30,244 nt of DNA from a virus, in the IMG/VR virus record IMGVR_UViG_3300035698_017805, positions 1-30,244 of that record; one strand, given 5' to 3'. Positions within the stretch are counted from its first letter, which is position 1. Each line of letters begins with the position of its first letter. Under the pieces are notes generated by a model. The model made no database searches. It worked only from the letters and a program-made list of their open reading frames with translations, and was not told where the DNA came from. The position numbers were made by a program, and so were the translations under genes. Shown here piece after piece: positions 1-30,244 of this stretch.

Positions 1-3000
1 TAGTCTACAGGTTGCATTTGATGCCCCAAACACAATGGCAGAGTTAGCTTCAGGAACTCTATCATCCCCAAAAGTAGTACCACTGTAGGTTAACTCATTA
101 GCACCTAAAACATCCAGATAATTATTTGAAAAATTATACTTTCTGATATAATCAGTAGGCATACCAGTACTTGCAGACAGTGGGGTAATTACAGGAACTT
201 GTTCATCTTCAACATCAACTTGGATATGTTCTAAAAACACCCCATCAAAGATTGATATTGCCCCTGCGTTGGTATCACCCCATACCGTAGTAAACTTAGT
301 CTCTTCGTGATAGAGGATTTCAACATCTTTCACCCCATGATCGGTCTGTGCATCTAAATGATGCTGATTATTATATCTGATTTCAGTGATACTAATGGGA
401 GTAGGAAAGGTAACATTCAGAACTTGATTAGTAACTGTCATATTACTAAACAATGCTGTTTTATCTGTAGCCGTACCTATTTTGGATAGAGAGGTATCAA
501 AAGCGTATTCAGGGAGGTAACTTGCACTGTAAAGAGAAGTGCCCTCGCACTCCCATGATACATCATAAAGTATTTTATTTGGGCCATTATAAAGATCAAT
601 TGCTCTTATTCCCATATACTCAGGTGCCCCATGATTAGTGGCACACCTAAACGATAGGCTCTTTATTAAAATAGATGCCCCACCACCATTTAATAATATA
701 CTTGATGTATTTGCTTCAGTCCCTATTAAGGCATCGTCAATTAAAAGGCTGATGTCATTTCCAGATTTGCTTAATGTAATAAGTGCTTGTTCTCCGTTTA
801 AAGTTGATGCGGGAGTTTCACAATTTGATAGAGAAGTGCCATCTACAGATATGCCCAGATTAGTAGAGTCAACGTGACCTACCACAAGAGCATCAGAGTT
901 AAAAGACAGAACCTTACTTAATGTTAAGGAATCCACATAGTCTAAAAATACAGAAAACGCTACGGAAGTAATAGTGGACAAAGGCTTATCCACTAAACTT
1001 GAAGGGAGTTTGCCTTTAATTACACTACTGGATGAATCAAGTGCAATTTCAGTCCCTATAAAATTTAAACTTTCTCCAGTTATTGCACCCTCATAAATAC
1101 CCGTTGCAGAATTAAAAAGAGTATCATTAGAGGGTTCTGGAACATTATACACAGATAAAAAAGAAGACCCGTAAGGGAGACTGTTTCCCATAAAACCAAG
1201 AGCATATTGATCTACATTTGTTTTAGAAATCTTTATAACAGTATCACCAACTGTCGTAACAGTAGGGACAACAACAGTCATTGATACCTTCTTTTTATGT
1301 ATATCCAAAAGAATAGGTATGAACGTATTAACAGTTCCTAATTTTGCTTTTGCACCCTGTATAGTACCTCTCCCAAACACAGTAAAGGTATCAGGTATAT
1401 TTGTGTTTGTAGATGGTATCTTATTATATGGATTACCTAAGATTTTAAGAATATGACTCGACATAGTAGCAGTAGACGAACCGTTGGAATGATAGTTCAC
1501 ATACTTTATGTCATCTATCTCAATAGGTTCTGGAAATGTGACAACAATCACTACAGGTTCGTATACTCCAACTATAGAACGATCTCCCAGAAAAAAATCT
1601 ATTGGAAATGCTCCATCTGGAGAGACATCAGAATCAAAAATGTATGTAGCATTATACTTTGTTGCATCTTTTATAAACTTTATAGGAGCATCTATCTCCC
1701 AGTCAGTAGTGTATTTGTGTAAAACACCCCTTCTATAAAAACGTAAGGCTCGTACACAACTCCTAATATAATCTTGACTATAAAATTCAAATCTTAATGA
1801 TTTTACTTTTACTGATCCTTTTAATGGTGGTGTTGTAGGATACAAAGTGCAAGGTGTCCACGTATCTCCAAATGGTGTACCTAAGATAACTTCGCCGTGT
1901 TCAATAGTATCTACTGGATGAGTCGTATCATTCACAAAAGCAGTTGTTTCTGAAGAAAATAGTTCAGCCTTATGTACTGACCTCTCTAGGTAAGATGTGG
2001 TACTATGACCGGGATGCCAAATCATACCTGTTATTGTTTTTGCTACAGGGAAAGTAATAATTACAGTAATAGGCAATCCTGTCACATAACCCTGCCAATC
2101 AGTATTAGAACTCGATCCTGTAGTAAGTTGAGTAGTATCAAAAAGATTAATAGCATCGTAAGTGCTACTGTATACACTACTTGCAAAACATGTCCATGAA
2201 GAGTCGTAAGGAATTACTTGACCTGCCTCATCTAAAAATTGGACAAGCCTTCCTGCAACATAATTTAGATCCCCATTATTTTCTGAGATCAACAGCTTTA
2301 CACTTAATGCTGTAAAAGGAGATGGGGCTTGTACCTTATCTACATGAGTAACTTCTGCATTTACTTGTGTGGCTCCTACTTCCACCTTCCACATTTTCCA
2401 CGAATCTTCATATAAATTATCAAATAAATGAGGGTATTTAATGCTGTCTAATTCAAGATTGATTGGAACATTACTCTCATCTGTAGAAGTAGTCCCTGCC
2501 GGAATAGTAGCAGTAACATACCTTTCGTCTATAGGGAAAGTATCACTCACAATTTCCAAGGATGGAACATCAGACCCTTTAAAGGGAAGAAAGCCCTTAG
2601 TATACCCAACATCAAGTGCAGAGGTGTATACTCCATTCTGTTTATTATGTATCCCTCCAGAATACTCTGGGGAACCTGCAAGCACCCTACTAATGTTATA
2701 CTGAGCATAGGATGGTTTGGTTTTGTTATCAACATAAATAGCCAAGGCTTCTGCGGTAATTATTGGTCTATTAAACAAACGTATATTATTCAATATAAGC
2801 GTATTATTTTGATTAAGAATGACTCCATTTGGGCCTATAATAAGTCCAGAAGTATTACGATCCGCCTCACACCTCATATCTACTTCACTGGTATAATTAT
2901 AGACATTAATACCGTTTTTAAAAACCTTCAGTCCACCTGAGTCAGAGATGGAAATACTCATATCTACTACTGATCCAAATGGTAATACAGTCATAAGTCT

Positions 3001-3990
3001 TCCAGTAGATCCACCTGTGCTACTATACACTTTAATGTATAGGGATGTGTAATAATGATAAACCTCTAACTGCCACGGAATAGATATAATTCTACCGTAG
3101 GTAACTAAGCTTCGCATTAGTTGCATAGTAAAAGATATGGTTAATGATCCATCATTCCTGTCTTGATAATAATCAGTTAAAAATCCTTGACTTGTTTCCC
3201 CTTCTACCATTTGCATAAGATACTGAGATCCAAACCACAAAGGTTTTATACCATCATCAAATACTTTTATACCTTTCCCTGATAATGATCCGTGTATAGG
3301 CAGTAAAGCAACATTTGATCCGTCACCTAAAACATCATAGGTTAAACCTTGTGAACAAAGTTCTGTTTGCACTTCTACAGAATCAGAAGACCCGTCCTGG
3401 GCAGTTATGGCAATTACTATTATAGGATTATCAGTTCCTGGAACATATAAAGTGCTTCCTACCGGTTGGGGTGCAACAGGAGTTCCAGCCACTTCAAAGT
3501 GCCCCATAGTATCAGAATCAAACACAAAGTATAAATCATCAACTACTTTATCATGTGAGAACATACGCACCATTGAGTTATTCCGATGTGTAGTACTAAC
3601 CAATGGATTTACATGAGAGTGACTATGTATTCTGTTCGCCACATCGCATAAAATAGCTTGGTATTCACTATCGGTTACTGAAAAAGTACCAGTACATAAG
3701 CTAATCCTGTCCAGTGCGTCCATGTTGTACTGATCTGATTGATCAAAACATAAAGCAATAAGAGACTGATCCTCATAACCATTGGGTTCTAAATAAATCA
3801 CAAAAGACTTATCGTCCTCAACAACTGTAGAACCTGCGTATAAATAATCATAATCAACCTTATTTAACAGAACTATGTGACGATCAGAAGCATTATCAAC
3901 TTGCACTGTTCCAGAGTATGTCATTTTACTAATAACAGTATCAGGTACTTTTCCAAGTAATAAAGTTGTCATTGTATCAGAATTAATCAT
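1..3990 (-). CDS. Giant tail adhesin/fibre-like protein, 3' end outside window
   Basis: An uninterrupted minus-strand reading frame of 1,330 codons starts at ATG 3990 and is still open at base 1, so the C-terminus lies outside the window. The start has a strong ribosome site (AGGAAGGGGG, 7 nt upstream) and overlaps the previous gene by 8 bp. Residues about 250-423 resemble a LamG/concanavalin-like lectin fold (DMSISISDSGGLKVFKNG, then LILNNIRLFNRPITAEALAIY minus its last residue). A second LamG-like stretch lies at about 995-1137. Regions around 500-740 and 1180-1270 look like discoidin (F5/8 type C) sheets (ITVIITFPVAKTITGMIWH). Lectin and discoidin folds bind glycans, so a role in host-surface binding at the tail tip or fibre is inferred from these folds and from the position after the tail genes. 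The domain calls come from reading by eye. Confidence 0.8.
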   Translation of the reverse strand, partial: MINSDTMTTLLLGKVPDTVISKMTYSGTVQVDNASDRHIVLLNKVDYDYLYAGSTVVEDDKSFVIYLEPNGYEDQSLIALCFDQSDQYNMDALDRISLCTGTFSVTDSEYQAILCDVANRIHSHSHVNPLVSTTHRNNSMVRMFSHDKVVDDLYFVFDSDTMGHFEVAGTPVAPQPVGSTLYVPGTDNPIIVIAITAQDGSSDSVEVQTELCSQGLTYDVLGDGSNVALLPIHGSLSGKGIKVFDDGIKPLWFGSQYLMQMVEGETSQGFLTDYYQDRNDGSLTISFTMQLMRSLVTYGRIISIPWQLEVYHYYTSLYIKVYSSTGGSTGRLMTVLPFGSVVDMSISISDSGGLKVFKNGINVYNYTSEVDMRCEADRNTSGLIIGPNGVILNQNNTLILNNIRLFNRPIITAEALAIYVDNKTKPSYAQYNISRVLAGSPEYSGGIHNKQNGVYTSALDVGYTKGFLPFKGSDVPSLEIVSDTFPIDERYVTATIPAGTTSTDESNVPINLELDSIKYPHLFDNLYEDSWKMWKVEVGATQVNAEVTHVDKVQAPSPFTALSVKLLISENNGDLNYVAGRLVQFLDEAGQVIPYDSSWTCFASSVYSSTYDAINLFDTTQLTTGSSSNTDWQGYVTGLPITVIITFPVAKTITGMIWHPGHSTTSYLERSVHKAELFSSETTAFVNDTTHPVDTIEHGEVILGTPFGDTWTPCTLYPTTPPLKGSVKVKSLRFEFYSQDYIRSCVRALRFYRRGVLHKYTTDWEIDAPIKFIKDATKYNATYIFDSDVSPDGAFPIDFFLGDRSIVGVYEPVVIVVTFPEPIEIDDIKYVNYHSNGSSTATMSSHILKILGNPYNKIPSTNTNIPDTFTVFGRGTIQGAKAKLGTVNTFIPILLDIHKKKVSMTVVVPTVTTVGDTVIKISKTNVDQYALGFMGNSLPYGSSFLSVYNVPEPSNDTLFNSATGIYEGAITGESLNFIGTEIALDSSSSVIKGKLPSSLVDKPLSTITSVAFSVFLDYVDSLTLSKVLSFNSDALVVGHVDSTNLGISVDGTSLSNCETPASTLNGEQALITLSKSGNDISLLIDDALIGTEANTSSILLNGGGASILIKSLSFRCATNHGAPEYMGIRAIDLYNGPNKILYDVSWECEGTSLYSASYLPEYAFDTSLSKIGTATDKTALFSNMTVTNQVLNVTFPTPISITEIRYNNQHHLDAQTDHGVKDVEILYHEETKFTTVWGDTNAGAISIFDGVFLEHIQVDVEDEQVPVITPLSASTGMPTDYIRKYNFSNNYLDVLGANELTYSGTTFGDDRVPEANSAIVFGASNATCRL

Positions 3991-8749: not shown

Positions 8750-9130
8750 CTAAACCTCCATTAACTTGATTGAAGTTACTTCAAAATATTCACTAACACC
8801 AAAATCGTTATACCCTTTTACAGTCTTTAAGTCAAGTGCTGTATCATCATGTCTAAAGATAACATTGAATGTTCTTGCATCCTGAAGTGTTAATGTCATC
8901 TCTGTCCCCGGCACATCTCTTAGAACTACCAATAAATTTAATGTTGCTCTTGTTATCCATGCCATATCACTCTTTCCTGCGAGAGTAATGAATCTTCCTT
9001 TGGATTTTAAATTATTTTGGACATGTAGAGATCCAGTAAATCCATAATTTGATGCTTGAGCAACTGGACTCCAGGAATATTCATCAACCCATTCCAAGTC
9101 ATCGGGTATTTCAATAGCATTTAATAACAT
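8750..9130 (-). CDS. Small conserved tail protein downstream of tape measure (126 aa)
   Basis: The start ATG overlaps the stop of the tape measure gene in a TAATG junction, and the stop TAG sits just before the GTG of the next gene, so translation is probably coupled on both sides. The protein has an N-terminal stretch DDLEWVDEYSWSPVAQ and a C-terminal FNVIFRHDDTALDL. I recall this pattern in small tail proteins that sit between the tape measure and the large tip protein in other siphophages. Size and position would suit a distal tail or tip-attachment protein, but this is inference. There is no membrane segment or catalytic motif. Confidence 0.6.
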   Translation of the reverse strand: MLLNAIEIPDDLEWVDEYSWSPVAQASNYGFTGSLHVQNNLKSKGRFITLAGKSDMAWITRATLNLLVVLRDVPGTEMTLTLQDARTFNVIFRHDDTALDLKTVKGYNDFGVSEYFEVTSIKLMEV

Positions 9131-12100
9131 TATGCTCTCCCTTGTGCTGTTTTCATTTCTAAAATAAAACTATCCATTGTCATACCATTACCTTCAAACG
9201 GGCCAAACTCTTTTCCACCCAGACTAAAATTAAGCTGATGTTTAACAACACTTCCTATGTCTGTGGCTTTCTGAGCAATACCACCAGAGGCCATTAAACC
9301 ATCAGGAATACGTATGTTACCCAAAGCATTATTTAGGTTAGATTGTAATACAGCACCACCTTCAGCAAACTTAGGAATACGTAGTTTGCCGGCATTTAAA
9401 AGATCAAGCCAACCAACACCAAACTTTTTAACAGCCGATTTCTTCAGTACGTACTCCCCTTTCATTAACATAGCTGGAACATCATCTTTATTACCATCAC
9501 CGGGAATATGTTGTTGTACCCGTTTAAAATTAGGGGCCACATTTCCACCTGTAGCATAACGTCTGGCAAGCTGTGTAGTTCTCCTTTGCTGATCTTCAAA
9601 CTCCCATGCTTTTTTAGAAGCTTCAGCCTCCTGTTTATTTTCAGCTATAAGGCGAGCTTCGGAAGCCCTGTACTCATCTTCAAGTGTCTTGAGATCGTAC
9701 TGAAGATTAGTTGTCAGGTCTGTTATATCCTTAGCAGTATGCTCTTGTATAACACTTCTGGAATCTTCTGATTCAAGGTATATGTTTGCTGTCTGATCAT
9801 CTGAATCTCTATTTGAATCAAACACACCACTATCACGGGCTGATCTGGCAGAATTTACACTGGTCTTGTTTGCTAAGGTCAATTTGGCTAATTCTTTAGC
9901 ATGGTCTGTTTCTGCTCTGTCATCTGCCTTATCATAAGCGGCTTCAGCTTTTGAATTAATTTTATTACCAGAAGATATTTGTTTATCCAGATCCTTAATC
10001 TCACTTTTTACACCTGGCAAAATCTCTATGGCATCGTACATCCTTTGCATAACCCTATTATAATTCGCAAAACCAGATGATCCATAAGCGGCAGGTTTTG
10101 CTCTCTTAGCCTGAAAGATTAGTTGATCCAAATCTTTCTTATATTTCTCAGCCTTTCTTTTATCCCTATTTAATTGTTTCTCTTCTGTGTTCCATGTTTT
10201 ATCTTCTTCTTTCCATTCAGCCTTTAATAAATCCTGTGCTGAATCAAGATCCATTTGCAGTTGTTTCTTTTCTGCCTTAAATTCATCATTAAGTTCCTCA
10301 ATGGCAGATTCCATCTCTTCTTTCAAGGCTTCTAATGAAGACGCTAATTCTTCCTGTACCTTTAAAAGTTCTAATTGTTCTTCCCTTAAAACTTCAGCAT
10401 ACTCAAAATCTTCATCAGCATTAGCCTGCTCAATGGCTTTATCATACTCCCTATTAATAAGATCTTTATCAATGGTGAATGTGTTATTGAGATCCGTCTT
10501 ATCAAGACCTAATCTGCTAAGTCTATCGGCTGTAGATTTTTCTCTTTCTGCTTTTATCTGTTTTGCTTCTAAGGCATCATCAGCCTTATCTGAAGCCATC
10601 TGTCTGGCTATCTCAGCATCATTCTCCGCTTTCTCTCTGGCTATCTCTGCGGCTTCTTCAGCCTGCTCTGCGGCCAACTCTGCGGCCAACTCTCTGGCAT
10701 CATCTGCGGTTGAATCATACTCATAATCGGAATCAGAAAGGGATGAATAATCAGAACCAGAATCACCGGCGGCATCTCTCAAAGCCTGTTCCTTGAGTGC
10801 TTGCAATCTCCGTTGTTTTTCTCTTTCTCTTTCAAGTTGTTCTTTTTTCCAAGCTGACAACCTCGCCATTACAGAACCACCCATCGCAAAATGAGGAACT
10901 TCTTCACTTTGAGCATTTCTTACTGGAGCAAGATCATTGGAGAAACCTAAGGGGTTCAAGAAGAAATCAATTTTCTTTTTTATGTTCCCAACTACCCCAC
11001 CTTTAGCAAAAGCGGGTGCGGCTTCAGCGACACCATTACTTACACTCTCCTTGACATTATTAAGTGTTTCCAATAAAGGGACTCCCAATTTATCAACAGC
11101 AGATTTCTTTATAACATATTCACCTTTAGTAAGCATTGCAGGAACATCATCTCTCTGACCAGTCCCGGCACTGATGAATGGTCTTATAAGTTTCTTGAAA
11201 ACCTTTCCACCTTTAGCAAAATTGGAGTAGTTGTTTTCGGAGAGTTCATCATCATACTGAGAACTTCTGATTTTATACTCATCCTCAAGTGCCTTTAGAT
11301 CTGATTTGAAATTAAACTTTAGTTCATCTATTGTATTTTCAACATTATCCTCAACACTTTCTAATTCGTTTTTCCTGGCATACTTGGTGATGTCTGTATC
11401 TTTGTCAGCTTCCCTCTTGGTTGTAGAGACATCCAATTTATTAGTTACTATAACTCGTTTAGTTGAAACCTTGTTTTCTTTTGTTGCTTCAGACAGATCA
11501 TCGGAGTATTCTTTTTTAACAACATTGAATTCTGAATCCTGTTTCCTCTTTTCTGCCAAGTATTCTTTTTTTAAATCCTTTGCATTTTGCTTTAACTCTT
11601 TTATTTCCTCTTTCTTTGCTGGCATTGCTCTCAAACCTTGACCAACCTTAGCCATATGTCTATTGTAGGCATTGATAACAGACATACCGCCACCTTTAAA
11701 TACTTTACCTTTGGTCTGTGCTATTGATTCCATGTCTTGATATTCATGCTCAAGAATGTTTAACTCTTTTCTCATTCCTGCTTTTTGATCATTATAATCA
11801 CCGGATAAATTTTTCTTACCATCTTTAATATTAGAATTAGATGTATCCAGTTCATCACCTAACATATTTTTTGTATCTTTATATTCACTATTCAAGCTAC
11901 TTAACTCAGCCTTTAATTCAGCCTTTAAAGTAGCAAGAGTAGTTTCTAACTCTTTGGCTATAAAAGTGAGGTCTAATTGTTCTTCTCTAAGGACTTGTGC
12001 TTTATCATAATCACCTTCGTCTTCAGCTTGTTCGATAGCTTTTCCATAATCACCATTGATGACATTTCTATCTATTTCAAAATCACGTTTCAAGGCTTCT

Positions 12101-15100
12101 TTGTCAGCTTGTATTCTTTTAGCTTCAAGTCTTGATTCCTCAATGAGTTCAGCTTTTCTTTCAGATTCTTCCTCTGCCCTCTCACGTAATCTTTCAGCCT
12201 CTTGGTAAGCTCTCTCTTCTTCCTTTACAGTTTTAGCATAGGCTCTCTCTTCTGCCCTTACAGCCGCCTCCATTTCTCTTTCCTGACGTTTCTCGGCGGC
12301 ATTTCTGGCTCTCTCTGCTTTAGCTTCAGCTTCCCTTTTAGCTCTCTCTGCTTTAAGATCAGCTATCCTTTGAGCTTCTATTTTAGCTCCTACTATACCA
12401 CCAGAAGCAAAATTCTCTACTTTACTGGAATAATCTCCCATCATATTAGATAATGATTGTATACCCAATGGGGTACCTATATTATCCATTTTAGCTGAAA
12501 CACTATCACTGGAAAACTTATGTTCCACTTTTACATCAGGATTAAGAAAGAGATCAATTTTCTTTTTAATATTATTTAATCCCATTACCTTCGGCATGAG
12601 TTTTAGACTATCAACCATTCCACCTTTTGCAAACTTGGGAATAAATGATTTGGCATTATTATTTAATCTCTCTAATAAGGGTAGTCCCAGTTTATCGACT
12701 GCTGATTTTTTGATAACATACTCACCTTTGGTAAGCATTGCGGGAACGTCATCTCTCTGCCCACTACCTGCACTTATAAACGGTCTTACTAATCTCCTAT
12801 ATACAGAACCTCCGGTTGCAAACCTTGCTACTCTTCCACCTTTACTATACTGGGCATCCGCAGAAATAGTAACTTTTTTATTTCTTATTTTAGCAATAGC
12901 CCTTGCTAATCTAAGGACATCCCTAATACCTTTTACATCTGCGACAATATCTACATTTTTACTTACTACACTGGAGATGGCTGATGCTAAAGAGTTTACA
13001 AATGATTCGCCTTTTACATCAACATCAACATCCTCGTCTACACTATCTATTTGATCCATTGACTTGTTTATACCTTCTACGTCAATAGATCCTACTGTTT
13101 TTACAGAAACTATAGCACTTTTATCCTCAACTGCATGGGATGAAACAAGTAGATCATCCACATCATCTTTGCCTTCTACAGTTACACCATAGGTGGCTTC
13201 TTTATCTACAATTTCGTGAGAAGTTACAAGCAAATCATCAACATTGGCTTTCCCTACAACTTCTGCTGTTATTGTGGAATCCACATCTTCAATTTCACTG
13301 GAAATGGCCACAAGGTCAGCTACACTCTCTTCACCTTTAACCATTGCTGTAATAATTGAATCTATATCTTCAATCTCATCAGATATGGCTACCAGGTCTT
13401 CTACATCACTCGTTCCTTCAACATTTACATCATAAGTGGTGTCTTTATCTACAATTTCATCTGCGATAGCTACAAGATCTTCTACTTTCTCCTGTCCATT
13501 TACGGAAACTTCATAAGAAGCTTCTGCTTTTATAGGTGGAATCAAAGCTTCTATTTTTGCTTTCTCAGCTTCAGAATCTTGAACTTCTAATTCTGTCTGG
13601 ATGGTTACTTCTTCAGGTACTTCATCATAAAATGGCTTCATGTCAGGAGTATTTATCCTAATCACTACACCATCATCAAAAACCTGAGTTAACTGCCCAA
13701 ATTGATCTTTAACAATTTTAAAAGCAGGTTCAGCAGATTCAGAAATTCCATCAAATATGGCTTTCCCATTTTCCCTTGCTGAATTAGCCATTTGTTTCGT
13801 AGCGTTTCTTTCAGCATCCGTTAAATCTGTGAATACCTTTATTCCGTTTTCTTCAATAACTCTAAAACCGTTTTCAGCAATTTCCCATATTTGTTTTTGA
13901 GTTTCAGAGATAGCCTCTTTATTTGCATTTAATACAGTTTTTGTAGAATCAACGGAAACTATATTTCTTTCCTGTATCTTTTTACTTTCTTGATCAATTA
14001 AATTCTCTTTATAATCAGAAACCTCTTTGGCTATCTTCTTAATTTCTTCACCTTCTTGTTTTGCCAGATCAGAGGCAGATGAAGATGAAGCATTATTTGA
14101 TGAAGTGCCACCTGCTATTTGTGTTTTTTCAATTTCTACTTTTTCTTGTAATTTCACAATCTCTTTTTCAAGATCATCCATTACTGCTTTGTGTCTTTTA
14201 GCTTCCTCAGTAAGAGCTGTTTTGTTAACCTTTACATAAGCGGCTTCTTGTTCATTGGAGGCTTCTTTAATACGAGTTAATTTTAAATCATGAGCAGATT
14301 GAAGGTCTTCTTTTTTACCTTCACTTTTGGTTTCTTCTTCTTTCCTTGCTTTTACAGCTTTAGCTACAGCTTCCTCAGCCTCTTTCTTTAAAATAAGTTC
14401 TTCAATCTCACCTTCAATATTTCTGGCTTTCTTTAAAGCCTTTTCTGCTTTTTCGATATTACTAATAGCTGTACGTTCATTTTCAAGACCTGATGCAAGA
14501 GTTTGTGCTTGTTCAATAAGATCTACACCTTGGGCAAGTTTCTGTTTGTCTTGTTCAGCTTCAGCTTGTGCTATGAGTTTAGAACCCTCAGAGAATTTTT
14601 CTTTCATAGCTTTTCTGTTACTGTTATTTACTTGCTCTTCCGTCATGCTCTTTTGACGTATGGCTCTTATCTGATCTTCTGCATCTCCCTCAATCCCTAA
14701 TATGTCTGCGGCAGTTTCTTGCTTGTTTTTTAAAGTCTTTTTAGCTATCTTCTTTAAATCTTCAGCCAGTTTTTCATTTATTTTTTTAATTTTTTCAGCG
14801 AGGGCTTCTTCTATCTTTTCTACCTTTAAGGCGTAACTTTCATTTTCTTTTCTTCTGGCCTTAAATGATTTCTTTTCATTTTTTTCAAGAGAATCGGTTA
14901 ATTTAGTATTTGATTTTTTAATGACATCTGCATTTTTATCATTCTCAGTTACCCTCTTTTTTTCAATACTAATAATTTCATCAACACTCTTTTGAATTTC
15001 CTGATTATGTGCTGAATTATATTTTTCAAGTTCCTGATAATATTTCTTCTCTGCGGCCAAGGCAATTTTGTGCCTTTTTTCATAATCATCTGCATCATTC

Positions 15101-18100
15101 TCTTTATTGGCAGATTTAAAATATACTTTAGCGGCTACTAATAATTCTTTATAGAAATTTAAAGTTGATTTCTTTTTGGAGTCTTCACCTTCTTTGTATG
15201 TTATGTCACTCTTTGTAACAAGGGCATCTATTTTTGATAAAGATTCAGCATGAGCAGTTTCTTTTTTTCTTAGAGATTCTTCATAAGCCTTTTCCTGACT
15301 AAGAGTATTTTCGGGTCTATCTTCTTCTAATCTCTTAATTGTTTCCAAGAAATCATTATGTGCTTTAGCTTTAGCTTTATTTAAAGCATCAGTATTTTTT
15401 AAGATACTTCCCGAAATATTATTTTGCTGAACTTCATAGGCTTTTAATTCAGATTCAAATTTTTCAGTGAGAATAGCTGATTCACTGGAATTTATTTCAT
15501 CTTGAAAAGCAAAAGCTTTAAGAGTTAATTCCCTTTTTTTCCTATCATATTTTTCATAAGCTTCTGTTTTTTCTTTTTCATTCCCTTGAGCGGCCGAAAC
15601 CTCTGTATTCTTTGTTTCTTCTATTTGTTTTAATTTTGCAATAAATCCTAACTTCCTACTCTCAAACCCCTGTAATTCTACAATATTTATTTTCTCTTGT
15701 AGACCTTTGTGGTCTTTAAGAGATTTGGTTAAGTTAGTTAAGTATTTAGGATCTTTATCAGTATCCCATTTTTCTATTATGTTTGTGAATGTAACGTCAT
15801 TCACTTTTTTGAGTATTTTAAGATGTTCAATGATACCCTCTAATTCCATCCCAGTGTACTTTGATTCCTTGGCAAGGTCTATTATAGCCTTTAGAGGTTG
15901 ATCTAAACTAATATCATTAGAAGCAATTAAAACGTCAGCCCAACCTTTGGTTGATACATTTAAAGTTTCAAAACCTTCTTTTAGAGTTTCTTGCTGTCTA
16001 TTTAACTTTAGACCTGACCAAGAATTTACAGTGTTCTGAAATTCTTTAAAGGATACTTCATTATTACTAATTGCCTTTGAAAAGTCGAATGCATCTGTTA
16101 TTGAATCATCTATAGACCAATTTAACAATTCATCCATAATTTTATTCAAATTTCTGGTGGCAAAATCAGTTTGTTTGGTGATAAATTTAGTGGCTTCTTC
16201 CAATGCAGTTGCAAGCTCTATTTTTTTCAACGCATTCAACTTATCAACAACTAAAGTTAAAGCTTCACCTTGGTCTTTTAATTTACCAGTTAAAGGATCT
16301 ATTTGGTTGGCGGCATTTAAAGCTTCTGTTGATACTGATCCAAATTTAGAAGCCAGATCATGTAAGTCTGTCCTTAATGATAAACTTCGTTGTATTAATT
16401 CTTTTGATCCCACAGAAAGATTTGCTGTGGACTCCATATAATTTTGAACTTTCTTAATTGCTCCTTGGTAAGCATCAGCCATACCTCGGGCGGCATTTGC
16501 GGCATCTGTTGTTGCATCTTTTAAGATATAAAACACACCTGCAATAGCACCTACGGCTATTGCGGCAGGTACAAGGATAGCAAGGGAAGCTATTAATATT
16601 TTTGTGGCTGAGGCTGTTCCAAGTAAAGCAAAATCTACAGCAAGCAATTCTGCTATAAGGGAACCAAATATAGAAGCGGCAAGTAGTGCTTTTAATTTTA
16701 AGAATGCAAGAGTTAATCCACCTACTATAACTGTAAAGGCTGATATTTTTATTATTACAGCACCTACAGAGCTATTTGCCAAGTAGGTCATTACATCAAC
16801 AACCTTTCTTGCCAAATCAATAAATAGTTTCATAACACCACTTGCACCACCTTCTCCTATGGCAACTGCAAACAATCCTACTTTATCTTTTAAATTCTTG
16901 AAGGATACTCCAAGACCTTCCATCTGAGTTGCGGCCATTCTTGCGGCTGTTCCAGTATCCCCTACAGTAGCTAACATGCTTTGAAAAGAACCTGTTGAAG
17001 ATGATAAAGCTAAGGCGGCTGAGGCTCCTCTTTTTCCAAAAACATCAAAAGCTACTGATGCATCATTTACAACTAAACCTAAATTTTGAATAACTTTGCT
17101 GTAACTTGTTACTCTTGGGTCAAGTTCTTCTAAAGAAACACCCACATCCATTGCGGCTTCTTTTAATTTCTTAGAAGGATCAATTAATTGAGAGAAAACA
17201 TTCCTTAAACCAGTACCTATGGTACTTGCACGTAAACCATTATTTGCAAGAGTCATCATGGATGCAGACAATTCTTTGAACGATACTCCTGAATCTCTGG
17301 CTACAGGTCCTACATAATTCATTGCTGTTCTGAGTTTATCTACTGTAAGTTTTGATCTATTCACAGCATTTGCAAAAACATCAACTATCTCACTTGACCT
17401 TGTTGCATCAATTCTAAACACCCTCATTGTGGTAGTAACAAGATCCACCGTACTTGCCATTGTTGAAAGTGTACCAGTTGCAAGGTCGGATACTGCTTGC
17501 ATGGTTTCCACTGCTTCTGTTGCAGAAAAACCAGCTTGTCCAATTGTTCTCATGCCCTCTGCTACTTCTGAGGCTGAAAATTTGGTGGAAGAGGCGACTT
17601 CGATTATCTTTTCACCCATTACCCCTACTTCGTACTCAGTAGCACCAGTAATGGCTTGCAGGTCTTTCAAAGCCTGATCATACTCTATAATGGATGTTAC
17701 TCCCTCACTGAAAGCAGTTCTAATACCTTGTAGGATACTTGAAATTACACGGAATTCAGCAACGGTTCTGAAATTATCTCCAAAACCTCTTACTTTTACA
17801 CCCGCTTTTTCTGCGGCATCTCCAATAGAACCATATGATTGTTTAACTTTATTTGTAGCGGCAGAAGATTTGTCAAAAGCGGCACTTAATTTATTTACAT
17901 CTCTGGCAAATGTTCCGAATGTTGTTAAATTTGTTGATTTTCCAATTTTATTTAAAGATATATTTAACTTGTTTAGTTTATTAGATAATTTATTTAACTC
18001 TAATTCACTTAATTTCTTTATTTGATTTACAAAAGGAGTAATAGAGGCTATTTTTACATCTTTAAGTTTTAAGAGTGAAGCTGTAAAACTTGCAATGTGC

Positions 18101-18729
18101 TTGGGTTGCCCTACTTTATTTAAAAGTTTAAAAGCTTTAGCAACCTTTATTAGTTTGTCAGGACTAGGAATAGTTTTAAGTCCTTGAAGAGACTTAACAA
18201 AAGGTCCAATAGATGCAACAGATGGTATTTTTAGGTTTTTAAGGTTTCCAAGTTCTTTTACATATCCTGCAAGATTCTTGGGTGGACCTACGTCATTTAG
18301 AAGTTTAAAAGCTTTAGCAACGCCTTCCAATTTTTCAGGACCGGGAATACTTTTAAGTCTTTCAAGAGACTTAACAAAAGGTCCAATAGAGGGTACTTTT
18401 AAATCTTTAAATTTTTCAAGCTCTGCTACATACTTTGAAATATCCTTAGGGGGATGTACATCATTTAGAAGTTTTAAGGCTTTAGCAAGACTTTCCAGTT
18501 TTTCAGAACTGGGAATACTTTTAAGCCCTTTTAAGGCCTCAACAGTAGAATTGAGGCCCATGGGTGGTTTTATACTATCCAAAGAAACTTTAAGGTCAGT
18601 CAAAGAAGTCTGAGCTACCTGAACTGATCCCTTTACACCTTCAAAAACGGTACCTAACTCTTTTATGCCTTTACCATCAAGACCTGTTACTTTTACAGCA
18701 ATTTCAACTTTTTTTGTTATGTCGGCCAT
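9130..18729 (-). CDS. Tail tape measure protein (about 3,199 aa), internally repeated
   Basis: It sets tail length and is presumably ejected with the DNA. I place the start at ATG 18729 (MADITKK), because GGAGG lies 5 nt upstream; an in-frame GTG at 18741 is the alternative. Order of parts: three roughly 60-residue repeats (about 45-245); a TP901/PhageMin_Tail-type core (about 310-670); hydrophobic, membrane-like helices (about 650-740); a very long Lys/Glu coiled coil (about 740-1640); about eight beta units of 27 residues (1739-1960); then a C-terminal third with three copies of a DDVPAMLxKGEYVxKKSAV motif (near 1990, 2524 and 3078) separated by coiled coils. That motif is known from tape measure C-termini, usually once. 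No lysozyme or peptidase domain is seen. The stop is coupled (TAATG) to the next gene. The protein is exceptionally long for the family. Confidence 0.95.
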   Translation of the reverse strand: MADITKKVEIAVKVTGLDGKGIKELGTVFEGVKGSVQVAQTSLTDLKVSLDSIKPPMGLNSTVEALKGLKSIPSSEKLESLAKALKLLNDVHPPKDISKYVAELEKFKDLKVPSIGPFVKSLERLKSIPGPEKLEGVAKAFKLLNDVGPPKNLAGYVKELGNLKNLKIPSVASIGPFVKSLQGLKTIPSPDKLIKVAKAFKLLNKVGQPKHIASFTASLLKLKDVKIASITPFVNQIKKLSELELNKLSNKLNKLNISLNKIGKSTNLTTFGTFARDVNKLSAAFDKSSAATNKVKQSYGSIGDAAEKAGVKVRGFGDNFRTVAEFRVISSILQGIRTAFSEGVTSIIEYDQALKDLQAITGATEYEVGVMGEKIIEVASSTKFSASEVAEGMRTIGQAGFSATEAVETMQAVSDLATGTLSTMASTVDLVTTTMRVFRIDATRSSEIVDVFANAVNRSKLTVDKLRTAMNYVGPVARDSGVSFKELSASMMTLANNGLRASTIGTGLRNVFSQLIDPSKKLKEAAMDVGVSLEELDPRVTSYSKVIQNLGLVVNDASVAFDVFGKRGASAALALSSSTGSFQSMLATVGDTGTAARMAATQMEGLGVSFKNLKDKVGLFAVAIGEGGASGVMKLFIDLARKVVDVMTYLANSSVGAVIIKISAFTVIVGGLTLAFLKLKALLAASIFGSLIAELLAVDFALLGTASATKILIASLAILVPAAIAVGAIAGVFYILKDATTDAANAARGMADAYQGAIKKVQNYMESTANLSVGSKELIQRSLSLRTDLHDLASKFGSVSTEALNAANQIDPLTGKLKDQGEALTLVVDKLNALKKIELATALEEATKFITKQTDFATRNLNKIMDELLNWSIDDSITDAFDFSKAISNNEVSFKEFQNTVNSWSGLKLNRQQETLKEGFETLNVSTKGWADVLIASNDISLDQPLKAIIDLAKESKYTGMELEGIIEHLKILKKVNDVTFTNIIEKWDTDKDPKYLTNLTKSLKDHKGLQEKINIVELQGFESRKLGFIAKLKQIEETKNTEVSAAQGNEKEKTEAYEKYDRKKRELTLKAFAFQDEINSSESAILTEKFESELKAYEVQQNNISGSILKNTDALNKAKAKAHNDFLETIKRLEEDRPENTLSQEKAYEESLRKKETAHAESLSKIDALVTKSDITYKEGEDSKKKSTLNFYKELLVAAKVYFKSANKENDADDYEKRHKIALAAEKKYYQELEKYNSAHNQEIQKSVDEIISIEKKRVTENDKNADVIKKSNTKLTDSLEKNEKKSFKARRKENESYALKVEKIEEALAEKIKKINEKLAEDLKKIAKKTLKNKQETAADILGIEGDAEDQIRAIRQKSMTEEQVNNSNRKAMKEKFSEGSKLIAQAEAEQDKQKLAQGVDLIEQAQTLASGLENERTAISNIEKAEKALKKARNIEGEIEELILKKEAEEAVAKAVKARKEEETKSEGKKEDLQSAHDLKLTRIKEASNEQEAAYVKVNKTALTEEAKRHKAVMDDLEKEIVKLQEKVEIEKTQIAGGTSSNNASSSSASDLAKQEGEEIKKIAKEVSDYKENLIDQESKKIQERNIVSVDSTKTVLNANKEAISETQKQIWEIAENGFRVIEENGIKVFTDLTDAERNATKQMANSARENGKAIFDGISESAEPAFKIVKDQFGQLTQVFDDGVVIRINTPDMKPFYDEVPEEVTIQTELEVQDSEAEKAKIEALIPPIKAEASYEVSVNGQEKVEDLVAIADEIVDKDTTYDVNVEGTSDVEDLVAISDEIEDIDSIITAMVKGEESVADLVAISSEIEDVDSTITAEVVGKANVDDLLVTSHEIVDKEATYGVTVEGKDDVDDLLVSSHAVEDKSAIVSVKTVGSIDVEGINKSMDQIDSVDEDVDVDVKGESFVNSLASAISSVVSKNVDIVADVKGIRDVLRLARAIAKIRNKKVTISADAQYSKGGRVARFATGGSVYRRLVRPFISAGSGQRDDVPAMLTKGEYVIKKSAVDKLGLPLLERLNNNAKSFIPKFAKGGMVDSLKLMPKVMGLNNIKKKIDLFLNPDVKVEHKFSSDSVSAKMDNIGTPLGIQSLSNMMGDYSSKVENFASGGIVGAKIEAQRIADLKAERAKREAEAKAERARNAAEKRQEREMEAAVRAEERAYAKTVKEEERAYQEAERLRERAEEESERKAELIEESRLEAKRIQADKEALKRDFEIDRNVINGDYGKAIEQAEDEGDYDKAQVLREEQLDLTFIAKELETTLATLKAELKAELSSLNSEYKDTKNMLGDELDTSNSNIKDGKKNLSGDYNDQKAGMRKELNILEHEYQDMESIAQTKGKVFKGGGMSVINAYNRHMAKVGQGLRAMPAKKEEIKELKQNAKDLKKEYLAEKRKQDSEFNVVKKEYSDDLSEATKENKVSTKRVIVTNKLDVSTTKREADKDTDITKYARKNELESVEDNVENTIDELKFNFKSDLKALEDEYKIRSSQYDDELSENNYSNFAKGGKVFKKLIRPFISAGTGQRDDVPAMLTKGEYVIKKSAVDKLGVPLLETLNNVKESVSNGVAEAAPAFAKGGVVGNIKKKIDFFLNPLGFSNDLAPVRNAQSEEVPHFAMGGSVMARLSAWKKEQLEREREKQRRLQALKEQALRDAAGDSGSDYSSLSDSDYEYDSTADDARELAAELAAEQAEEAAEIAREKAENDAEIARQMASDKADDALEAKQIKAEREKSTADRLSRLGLDKTDLNNTFTIDKDLINREYDKAIEQANADEDFEYAEVLREEQLELLKVQEELASSLEALKEEMESAIEELNDEFKAEKKQLQMDLDSAQDLLKAEWKEEDKTWNTEEKQLNRDKRKAEKYKKDLDQLIFQAKRAKPAAYGSSGFANYNRVMQRMYDAIEILPGVKSEIKDLDKQISSGNKINSKAEAAYDKADDRAETDHAKELAKLTLANKTSVNSARSARDSGVFDSNRDSDDQTANIYLESEDSRSVIQEHTAKDITDLTTNLQYDLKTLEDEYRASEARLIAENKQEAEASKKAWEFEDQQRRTTQLARRYATGGNVAPNFKRVQQHIPGDGNKDDVPAMLMKGEYVLKKSAVKKFGVGWLDLLNAGKLRIPKFAEGGAVLQSNLNNALGNIRIPDGLMASGGIAQKATDIGSVVKHQLNFSLGGKEFGPFEGNGMTMDSFILEMKTAQGRA
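12850..13515 (-). repeat. About eight 27-residue beta repeats inside the tape measure
   Basis: The encoded repeat has the pattern V-x-V-x-G-x-x-x-V-x-D-L-V-A-I-S-x-E-I-x-D-x-D. The units begin at YEVSVNGQEKVEDLVAIADE, YDVNVEGTSDVEDLVAISDE and TAMVKGEESVADLVAISSE, and decay towards the last unit (VADVKGIRDVLRLARAIAKI). They sit between the long coiled coil and the first GEYV motif. Similar 'x-V-x-G-x-x-x-V-x-x-L' units occur in other tape measure proteins; their role is not known. Confidence 0.75.
18000..18590 (-). repeat. Three roughly 60-codon tandem repeats at the tape measure N-terminus
   Basis: The repeat unit reads L-K-x-I-P-x-x-E-K-L, then A-K-A-x-K-L-L-N-D-V-x-x-P-K, then S-I-x-P-F-V-K-S-L. 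DNA identity is still high: a run beginning GACTTAACAAAAGGTCCAAT (plus-strand reading) is present near 18191 and again near 18369, about 178 bp apart. This suggests recent duplication. The third unit is more diverged (SFTASLLKLKDVKIASITPF). Confidence 0.75.
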
Positions 18730-18730
18730 T

Positions 18731-19087
18731 CTAACCTCCACCCATTCGTTTTTTTAGGCGTTTCCAATCATCCTGTACTTTATCTTTAGGAATCTCCTTC
18801 TTAGCCACACGATCTTTGTAGGTGGGATCTATGCCATTCAAAACATTTAGTAAACCTTCGTATTCCAAATTAGATCCCATCCAAGTTTGTGAGAGTTTTT
18901 CAACCCTCTTGTCCATTTCTGTTAACATTACCGTTTTGAAAAACATACCTATCTCAGATAATGTATACTGTTTAATGCTTGACCACGAATGCCCATTAGC
19001 AATTAGGACTTGGATTGCTGTGGAGATTCCTGTTTTGCCGCTTTCTGGTCTATCAGAGGACGGAAAAGTGTCGTCAAGCTCTTTGAG
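18731..19087 (-). CDS. Tail assembly chaperone, frameshifted 'T' part (G-T fusion)
   Basis: This frame is -1 relative to the upstream chaperone gene and is open from the slippery site to TAG 18731, giving 118 residues. Joined to residues 1-128 of the upstream frame it makes a fusion of about 246 residues, analogous to lambda gpG-T. The extension carries NGHSWSSIKQYTLSEIGMFF, where the 'W-x-x-I-x-x-Y-T-L-x-E-I' pattern is typical of the T-like domain in these chaperones. An internal ATG at 18946 could start a 71-residue product, but the conserved-looking part begins upstream of it, so the fusion is favoured. The gene ends 1 nt before the tape measure start, as expected for a chaperone that binds the tape measure and tail tube during assembly. 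Confidence 0.85.
   Translation of the reverse strand, partial: LKELDDTFPSSDRPESGKTGISTAIQVLIANGHSWSSIKQYTLSEIGMFFKTVMLTEMDKRVEKLSQTWMGSNLEYEGLLNVLNGIDPTYKDRVAKKEIPKDKVQDDWKRLKKRMGGG
18734..18738 (-). promoter_or_regulatory. GGAGG ribosome site that fixes the tape measure start
   Basis: The minus strand reads GGAGG, TTAGA, ATG, placing an ideal site 5 nt before ATG 18729. The in-frame GTG at 18741 contains this GGAGG in its own following codons, so it has no comparable site. I therefore start the protein at the ATG. Confidence 0.75.
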
Positions 19088-19470
19088 TTTTTTTCGAAAT
19101 TTTCCTTGGCTTTCAGGTTGACTTCGATAACTTTATCAATGACTGTAACAATGACATCAATAGGAAGTTTAATAAGGTCATCTTTGTGGATATCTGAAAG
19201 TTCTTCAAGGACTTCAGGAAACTGTTTGATAAGGACTGTAGCCATTGTAAAAAGATTTTCAGGCTGGTTGTAATTGTCCCAGGTAACTCCCTGATCGGCA
19301 AGTACTGTGCCATAACCTTTGGCTTTTATTGTGAGGATTGCAATTTGCTCCGCTACGAGAGGGCGGATAAGGACTTGCTGATCTCCAATCATTAGAGGTT
19401 CACCTGGAAAAAGTGCTTCTAAATCAATGGTAATTCTTTGTCTTTGTTTTGGTGCGGGTGTTGTACTCAT
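19003..19470 (-). CDS. Tail assembly chaperone, 'G' part (155 aa)
   Basis: The gene starts at ATG 19470 with an AAGGA site about 10 nt upstream and ends at TAA 19003. It is a small acidic and hydrophobic helical protein (IDLEALFPGEPLMIGDQQV, IKQFPEVLEELSDIHKDDL), in the place between the tail tube and tape measure genes where siphophages encode their tail chaperone. The last 27 residues lie beyond a slippery sequence and are replaced when ribosomes shift. Its role would be to keep the tape measure soluble and load tail tube subunits; this rests on gene order and the frameshift, as the sequence of the family is poorly conserved. The terminator just upstream may set its expression apart from the tail tube gene. 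Confidence 0.85.
   Translation of the reverse strand: MSTTPAPKQRQRITIDLEALFPGEPLMIGDQQVLIRPLVAEQIAILTIKAKGYGTVLADQGVTWDNYNQPENLFTMATVLIKQFPEVLEELSDIHKDDLIKLPIDVIVTVIDKVIEVNLKAKENFEKNSKSLTTLFRPLIDQKAAKQESPQQSKS
19087..19093 (-). promoter_or_regulatory. Programmed -1 ribosomal frameshift site A AAA AAC
   Basis: The minus-strand heptamer A AAA AAC lies in the zero frame as GAA AAA AAC at residues 126-128 of the chaperone. It is a classic X XXY YYZ slippery sequence. After a -1 slip the next codon is CTC, and the frame stays open for 118 codons. A weak stem (GACG pairing with CGTC, 9 nt loop) begins about 13 nt downstream and could stimulate the shift; I see no strong pseudoknot. Confidence 0.88.
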
Positions 19471-22343: not shown

Positions 22344-22634
22344 TTATTCCTTTTTAGATTTTTTCAATTTAATTCTTTTTTTAACTTTAACAGGAGTTTC
22401 AGTTTTTTCTTTAAGTTCCTGAGGTTTCTCTGGTTCTTCTTCCAGTTCTTTCTCAGGTTCTGGTTCTTCTTCCAGTTCTTTCTCAGGTTCTGGTTCTTCT
22501 TCCAGTTCTGGAAGTTTTTCCTCAAGTTCTGGTTCTTCTTCCTGTTTTGTTCTACTCCATCCAGAAGCTAACATGATTGTCAATTGTTCTGAATCACAAT
22601 TAGCTTCCATTCCTTCTTTGTTGTATATCTTCAT
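22344..22634 (-). CDS. Small acidic-repeat protein after the capsid gene (96 aa)
   Basis: It starts at ATG 22634 with AGGAGAT upstream. The first 30 residues (MKIYNKEGMEANCDSEQLTI, then MLASGWSRTK) follow a pattern seen in small phage proteins encoded just after the capsid gene ('YNKDG...ML..GW'). The middle is almost only Glu, Pro and Leu, with a PEPEKELEEE repeat, and the last 20 residues are Lys-rich, giving a strongly dipolar and probably disordered tail. The acidic part is encoded by a 30-bp DNA tandem repeat. Function is unknown; a head-assembly accessory role is a guess from position. Confidence 0.7.
   Translation of the reverse strand: MKIYNKEGMEANCDSEQLTIMLASGWSRTKQEEEPELEEKLPELEEEPEPEKELEEEPEPEKELEEEPEKPQELKEKTETPVKVKKRIKLKKSKKE
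22431..22510. repeat. 30-bp tandem repeat in the acidic-protein gene
   Basis: On the plus strand the unit TCCAGTTCTTTCTCAGGTTC plus TGGTTCTTCT occurs exactly at 22441-22470 and 22471-22500. Partial copies on both sides give about 2.7 copies. The unit length is ten codons, so copy-number change keeps the reading frame. Confidence 0.9.
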
Positions 22635-29821: not shown

Positions 29822-30012
29822 CGAAGTTATGCGGTAATAATAAAGTTATGCGGTAATAATAAAGTTATGCATGCATAACTTTACATAGTAGTAATTATAA
29901 TGTTTGGTATACATAACTTTATATGTACTACTATGTAAAGTTATGCAGTAAATATTTTATTATGCATGACTAATAAAATTTAATCTACTATGTAAAGTTA
30001 TGCATGCATAAC
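29822..30012. repeat. Palindrome-rich region built on GTTATGC cores
   Basis: AGTTATGCGGTAATAATAA occurs exactly twice in tandem (29825-29843, 29844-29862). Next is a perfect 24-bp palindrome (29860-29883, half-site TAAAGTTATGCA). A perfect 22-bp inverted repeat joins 29872-29893 with 29926-29947 around a 32-bp centre, and its arm recurs at 29985-30002. A 9-bp hairpin (ATTTTATTA at 29954-29962, TAATAAAAT at 29971-29979) has TGCATG in its loop. A 16-bp palindrome GTTATGCATGCATAAC lies at 29997-30012. All are read directly. The density suggests a protein-binding region such as an origin, partition site or operator array. Confidence 0.85.
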
Positions 30013-30244
30013 ATAATGATTCATGCATAACATAATGATTCATGCATAACATAATGATTCATGCATAACATAATGATTCATGCATAACTATATCATTCAT
30101 ACATAACTATATCATTCATGCATAACTATATCATTGATACATAACTATATCATTCATGCATAACATAATGATTCATACATAACTATATCATTCATGCATA
30201 ACATAATGATTCATACATAACTATATCATTGATACATAACTATA
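30006..30244. repeat. 19-bp tandem repeat (iteron-like) array, runs off window
   Basis: Twelve complete 19-bp units and a partial thirteenth follow without spacers. Type A is GCATAACATAATGATTCAT; type B is RCATAACTATATCATTSAT. Their order from 30006 is A A A A B B B B A B A B, then partial B. All keep CATAAC at the same phase, and junctions with a leading G create ATGCAT. The unit length equals that of the GTTATGCGG repeats at 29825-29862 but the core is in the opposite orientation. The array continues beyond base 30244. Confidence 0.92.

Follow-up and report, generated by a model that had tools for sequence, protein, structure and literature searches.

Most evidence that tape measure proteins (TMPs) govern tail length has come from engineered deletions and duplications. 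In TM4, the loss of 114 aa from the TMP shortened the tail by ~20 nm (PMC1796659), and in TP901-1 a series of TMP deletions changed tail length in proportion (PMC5099701). The TP901-1 TMP contains 11-residue repeats, and the authors of that study suggested that such repeats ease duplication and deletion and, with them, changes in tail length (PMC5099701). TMPs with a PhageMin_Tail domain (PF10145) combine this N-terminal domain with a giant coiled-coil protein, encoded upstream of the tail tip genes, and a C-terminal GEYV-type domain. The TMP of mycobacteriophage Douge, gp16 (PDB 8zdo, 1699 aa), contains two GEYV-type domains (E 1e-12) spaced by 448 residues, and its C-terminal segment is held in the hub in trimeric form (PMC13033339). 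The TMP described here follows the PhageMin_Tail plan and extends known biology; it is no new kind of system. It carries three GEYV domains, one more than Douge, and two modules of ~540 aa, a repeat unit far larger than that of TP901-1, whereas its closest kin have one GEYV domain and no module.

The window, meaning the whole stretch of 30,244 bases analyzed here, is an IMG/VR virus record from an uncultured bacterial virus. Its TMP gene lies between the major tail and chaperone genes and the tail tip genes. Upstream are genes for terminase, portal, scaffold, major head, connector, and major tail (phrog_807) proteins, and downstream are tail tip genes with matches to phrog_4408, phrog_6128, and the tail assembly family phrog_9600. 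Stenotrophomonas phage S1 has its tail genes in the same order, which together with these neighbors indicates an ordinary siphovirus-type tail cassette. The PhageMin_Tail domain was found at TMP aa 377-554 (E 3e-37; 128.8 bits against a curated cutoff of 33.2). The start codon is listed as GTG, with an ATG 4 codons downstream. Two features of the gene set the frame for what follows.

9130..18741, minus strand: TMP gene, 3203 aa, identified by Pfam PhageMin_Tail and by many PHROG tape measure families
12823..13536, minus strand: array of eight or nine 27-residue beta-alpha repeats, TMP aa 1736-1973, detected by autocorrelation

The beta-alpha array, with autocorrelation peaks at lags 27, 54, 81, and 108, lies directly ahead of the first GEYV domain. 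Nearer the N terminus, aa 50-245 (18007-18594) hold three to four further repeats of ~56 to 59 residues, LKSIPSPEKLEGVAKAFKLLNDVGPPK-like, that are 69 to 75% identical in DNA. The tail assembly chaperone open reading frame (ORF) preceding the TMP gene (19003-19470) likely undergoes a programmed frameshift of the G/GT type: a slippery heptamer, A AAA AAC, lies near 19093, close to the end of the ORF, and from it the -1 frame (19103-18731, minus strand) stays open until 18731, just short of the TMP start.

The GEYV motif occurs at TMP aa 2006, 2540, and 3095, and the spacings of 534 and 555 residues agree within one residue with those in a preliminary description of this DNA. A degenerate-DNA search of the whole 30,244-base record returned exactly three matches to the motif, all in the TMP gene, and none to a reversed control pattern. 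Self-BLAST of the whole TMP returns only the self hit; the protein was therefore cut into segments at the motif domains, and these were compared. With composition correction, module 1 (cut as aa 1960-2495) and module 2 (2496-3055) aligned at 32% identity over 528 aa (E 1e-63), and the third part resembled both over only ~75 aa. The whole block thus recurs, which rules out repetition of the short motif only. The motif had first been described as triplicated. Three GEYV domains are indeed present, with two rather than three modules, followed by a terminal motif domain of ~70 aa and a C-terminal segment.

11221..12822, minus strand: module 1, TMP aa 1974-2507, with GEYV domain 1, NIKKKIDLFLNP, an FASGG loop, a charged helix, a hairpin, and a coiled coil; aligns end to end with module 2
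9559..11220, minus strand: module 2, TMP aa 2508-3061, with GEYV domain 2, NIKKKIDFFLNP, an FAMGG loop, a charged helix, a hairpin, and a coiled coil; aligns with module 1, its sister in the module tree (100/99)
12607..12822, minus strand: GEYV domain copy 1, TMP aa 1974-2045, from the motif search; the only copy in the window with a preceding beta segment
10987..11220, minus strand: GEYV domain copy 2, TMP aa 2508-2585, 66% identical to copy 1
9349..9558, minus strand: GEYV domain copy 3, TMP aa 3062-3131, 54% identical to copy 1, with no module after it

Coiled coils can resemble one another through composition. The coiled-coil parts of the two modules, however, aligned with a score of 369, compared with 114 ± 14 (z = 18) in 500 shuffles that kept 7-residue blocks (heptads) intact, the highest of which scored 169. 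A score so far above heptad-preserving shuffles indicates a likeness beyond coiled-coil composition. In the DNA, likeness between the copies is found mainly in the GEYV domains (165 nt at 75% and 88 nt at 66 to 73%), indicating that the duplication is old; this divergence also rules out an assembly duplicate as the source of the repeat.

The flanking features noted at the outset were all recovered, namely, the FATGG, FAKGG, FASGG, and FAMGG loops, the NIKKKIDLFLNP (aa 2057) and NIKKKIDFFLNP (aa 2586) stretches, and the KAIEQA hairpins. The hairpins read KAIEQA...DYDKAQVLREEQL in module 1 and KAIEQA...DFEYAEVLREEQL in module 2, and a hidden Markov model (HMM) built for them has the consensus Y...I..A...GN.E.A.IL..E...L...A.EL...L..L..EY.

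11890..12081, minus strand: helical hairpin of module 1, TMP aa 2221-2284, hairpin HMM 74 bits, predicted helix-turn-helix (pLDDT ~78-88)
10288..10479, minus strand: helical hairpin of module 2, TMP aa 2755-2818, hairpin HMM 71 bits

AlphaFold predicted this part as two helices, the second of them long, joined by a turn at EGD; confidence in the module model was low outside the helices, and a structure search with it gave a best match of E 4.6. The suggested resemblance to a UVR helix pair proved to be one of shape only: Pfam UVR (PF02151) matched 1 of 10 hairpins, at E 0.75, and the others had no match, so homology was rejected.

One role that such modules might have is in genome delivery. 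TMPs are thought to exit the tail and form a channel across the cell envelope, as proposed for Douge from cryo-electron tomography (PMC13033339), and the modules sit at the end of the TMP that would exit first. GEYV-coil units could then bridge or line the envelope, with extra units giving reach across it rather than tail length as such. We regard this role as unlikely, since Pfam recognized no enzymatic or other known domain in the modules, and the idea would be compatible with length determination as well.

Loci of relatives were fetched in two ways, by GEYV motif and by N-terminal TMP domain irrespective of motif. A scan with the whole TMP as the query found no relatives; those analyzed were recovered with the N-terminal domain and with motif alignments. 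Among complete TMPs of the N-terminal-domain set, zero, one, two, and three GEYV domains were found in 8, 30, 6, and 2 cases, respectively, where the set comprises strong N-terminal matches plus one weaker match (L011), a few of its multi-copy members were contributed by the motif-based fetch, and near-duplicate rows are included. One-motif TMPs in this set are 1383 to 2432 aa long, two-motif TMPs 2637 to 4585 aa, and the two three-motif TMPs 3203 aa (window) and 3404 aa (L016), with no overlap between one-motif and multi-motif lengths. TMPs in which no GEYV copy was detected measure 1281 to 2351 aa, and these weaken the overall rank correlation between GEYV number and length (rho 0.36, p 0.014). 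On the same N-terminal domain, TMPs with one motif lack the block, those with two have one block, and those with three have two, so that module number matches TMP length class. Relatives with one or two modules had been proposed as a test, and TMPs with zero, one, and two modules do exist.

The hairpin follows the same rule. By the HMM, each of the nine hairpin-bearing TMPs that are complete and distinct has one hairpin fewer than it has GEYV domains (three GEYV domains with two hairpins in two TMPs, and two with one in seven), and the HMM found no hairpin in one-motif TMPs. The window TMP, with three and two, thus belongs to the class of multi-GEYV module TMPs as we define it here. The only other triple-GEYV TMP, that of the uncultured phage IMGVR_UViG_3300002026_000180 (L016), shares with it the N-terminal family and the two hairpin modules.

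The motif had been said to occur normally once. That holds for the closest relatives only; across motif-bearing IMG/VR TMPs, two copies are commonest, and four and five occur. Of the complete motif-bearing ORFs, 31 had one GEYV domain, 76 had two, and 2 had three, and single ORFs had four (L231) and five (L235), in a sample that pools both kinds of search and leans to motif-rich proteins. Outside the TMP family of the window, 73 of 79 complete motif-bearing TMPs have two or more copies, up to five. The GEYV domain is widespread and conserved, and in the literature collection searched, no paper mentioned both GEYV and tape measure protein in its full text. The four-copy (L231, 26-10366) and five-copy (L235, 2081-12163) IMG/VR TMPs have no hairpin module.

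The order of events can be read in part from a beta-strand segment found ahead of the single GEYV domain in short relatives. Most multi-copy TMPs have a recognizable copy of this segment before their first GEYV domain (E 1e-3 to 6e-21; the exception is L169, E 0.2), and a search before their later copies found it before none. Its restriction to this position indicates that the first GEYV domain is the ancestral single copy and that modules were added downstream. In the module tree, the two window modules are sisters (100/99), as are the two L016 modules (100/99); the program warns of long branches, and the higher identity within each pair shows the same within-phage joining. The duplications are thus lineage specific. 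This pairing within each phage favors independent duplications over a single old triplication. In the GEYV domain tree, L016 copies 2 and 3 pair within a terminal-type clade (98/91), and in an internal-type group window copies 1 and 2 come out closest to each other, with weak support (85/27). In the N-terminal tree, L016 is placed apart from the clade (99/93) that holds the window, in which every other complete TMP carries either a single motif or no motif. Taken together, these pairings and the separate N-terminal positions make it most likely, as judged from sequence comparison, that the triple architecture arose independently at least twice.

The C-terminal half of the window TMP seems to have a more complex history. 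Its closest N-terminal relatives (up to 72% identity, within the 99/93 clade) are one-motif TMPs, mostly of 1627 to 1803 aa, and they carry a different type of GEYV domain, for example, GGGDRRPILAEDGEWIINK. This difference suggests that the C-terminal half likely recombined with another TMP lineage. In the GEYV tree, which is weakly resolved, copy 3 falls among the internal-type domains and not among the terminal ones; gene conversion or recombination with another TMP is a possible source of its internal type.

Beyond the third GEYV domain, the TMP ends in a segment that occurs once.

9133..9249, minus strand: single C-terminal segment, TMP aa 3165-3203, two strands and a helix (prediction), aligned in 15 relatives; candidate tip anchor

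Its strands and helix were predicted at pLDDT 65-78 within a C-terminal model that is weak overall (mean pLDDT 57.9). The segment is positioned like the TMP ends that have been modeled in the tail tips of Douge (PMC13033339) and lambda (PMC10721106). In the Douge baseplate, residues 1658-1699 of 1699 are modeled, as a trimer in the hub (PMC13033339), and in the lambda tip, gpH residues 818-842 (PMC10721106) of an 853-residue chain. The GEYV-like stretches of these proteins, at 972-1028 and 1420-1472 in Douge (E 1e-12) and, doubtfully, at 739-775 in lambda (E 0.59), lie upstream of the modeled segments, with the proviso that a region unresolved in a structure can still make contacts. In TP901-1, the last 30 TMP residues are required for tail formation (PMC5099701).

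These observations bear on the initial suggestion of three stacked binding sites for tip proteins. Each GEYV domain would then dock on a tip or hub protein, and the repeats would raise avidity for the tip or fix a succession of docking positions. In favor of this reading, no part of the module is better conserved than the GEYV domain (66% identity between copies 1 and 2), and all copies are in the C-terminal, tip-facing part of the TMP. The tip-modeled residues of Douge and lambda nevertheless lie beyond the GEYV-type domain, and copies ~540 residues apart would, if helical, be tens of nanometers up the tube. A copy of the C-terminal anchor in each module was also sought and rejected: profile comparison with hhalign gave E 0.17 and a score of 9.4, below the best column-shuffled controls (14.5). 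That the candidate anchor is single and unrepeated in the modules argues against three tip-binding sites, which we consider very improbable.

We favor as likely an alternative in which the ruler grew by module duplication, its distal part being a repeatable GEYV-coil module that lengthens the tail and ends in a single C-terminal anchor. The repeatable unit would comprise a GEYV domain, glycine loops, the helix-turn-helix hairpin, and a long coiled coil. The ancestor of this ruler would have carried a single GEYV domain beside the tip anchor and would have gained a coil and a second GEYV domain, and the lineage of the window would have copied the module once more, yielding GEYV-coil-GEYV-coil-GEYV-anchor. 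The added coils would be housed in a TMP trimer within the tail tube, and the anchor at the extreme C terminus would stay single and do the tip binding. By a rule of ~0.15 nm per TMP residue, we infer that each module would add ~80 nm and that the whole TMP would give a tail of ~480 nm. Growth of the tail by module duplication had been proposed at the outset. The self-alignment, relatives that carry no, one, or two modules, and the sister placement of the window modules bear out the duplication; the link to tail length is indirect, through TMP length classes and tails engineered elsewhere. Among the latter, TP901-1 with a duplicated TMP segment is reported to have a tail ~30% longer (PMC5099701). 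Without its spacers, the window TMP still measures ~2105 aa, compared with ~1650 to 1800 aa in close kin; multi-module TMPs are longer outside the modules too, so the modules explain only part of the length difference.

Module number might instead have drifted without a selected function, if rulers tolerate a duplicated coil. The same TP901-1 duplication phage is reported to be unimpaired in titer and plaque size (PMC5099701), and duplications arose at least twice among these TMPs. Against this, the hairpin and GEYV sequences have been kept in both window copies despite linkers only ~30% identical, which indicates constraint on each copy. We therefore consider neutral drift rather unlikely.

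For growth of the ruler by duplication, the relatives with zero, one, and two blocks suggest that rulers lengthen by adding and copying the block, and its separate duplication in two lineages suggests that it offers an easy route to a longer tail. The second instance is the L016 duplication, which differs from that of the window in that GEYV copies 2 and 3 there belong to the terminal type. The zero-, one-, and two-module TMPs form a natural series on one N-terminal domain for studying tail-length evolution. A broader proposal, which we put forward only tentatively, is that the GEYV domain and hairpin coil form a general, exchangeable extension block that several lineages duplicated independently, with GEYV as a joint between trimeric coiled-coil segments and tail length evolving stepwise.

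Two other repeats were noted in the window. Just downstream of the major head gene, a small ORF (22344-22634, minus strand) encodes glutamate/proline repeats (EPEPEKELEE) and contains a perfect 30-base tandem repeat. At 30003-30244, an AT-rich array of ~12 copies of a 19/38-base unit, CATGCATAACTATATCATT, reaches the end of the record and could be an origin-like or terminal repeat.
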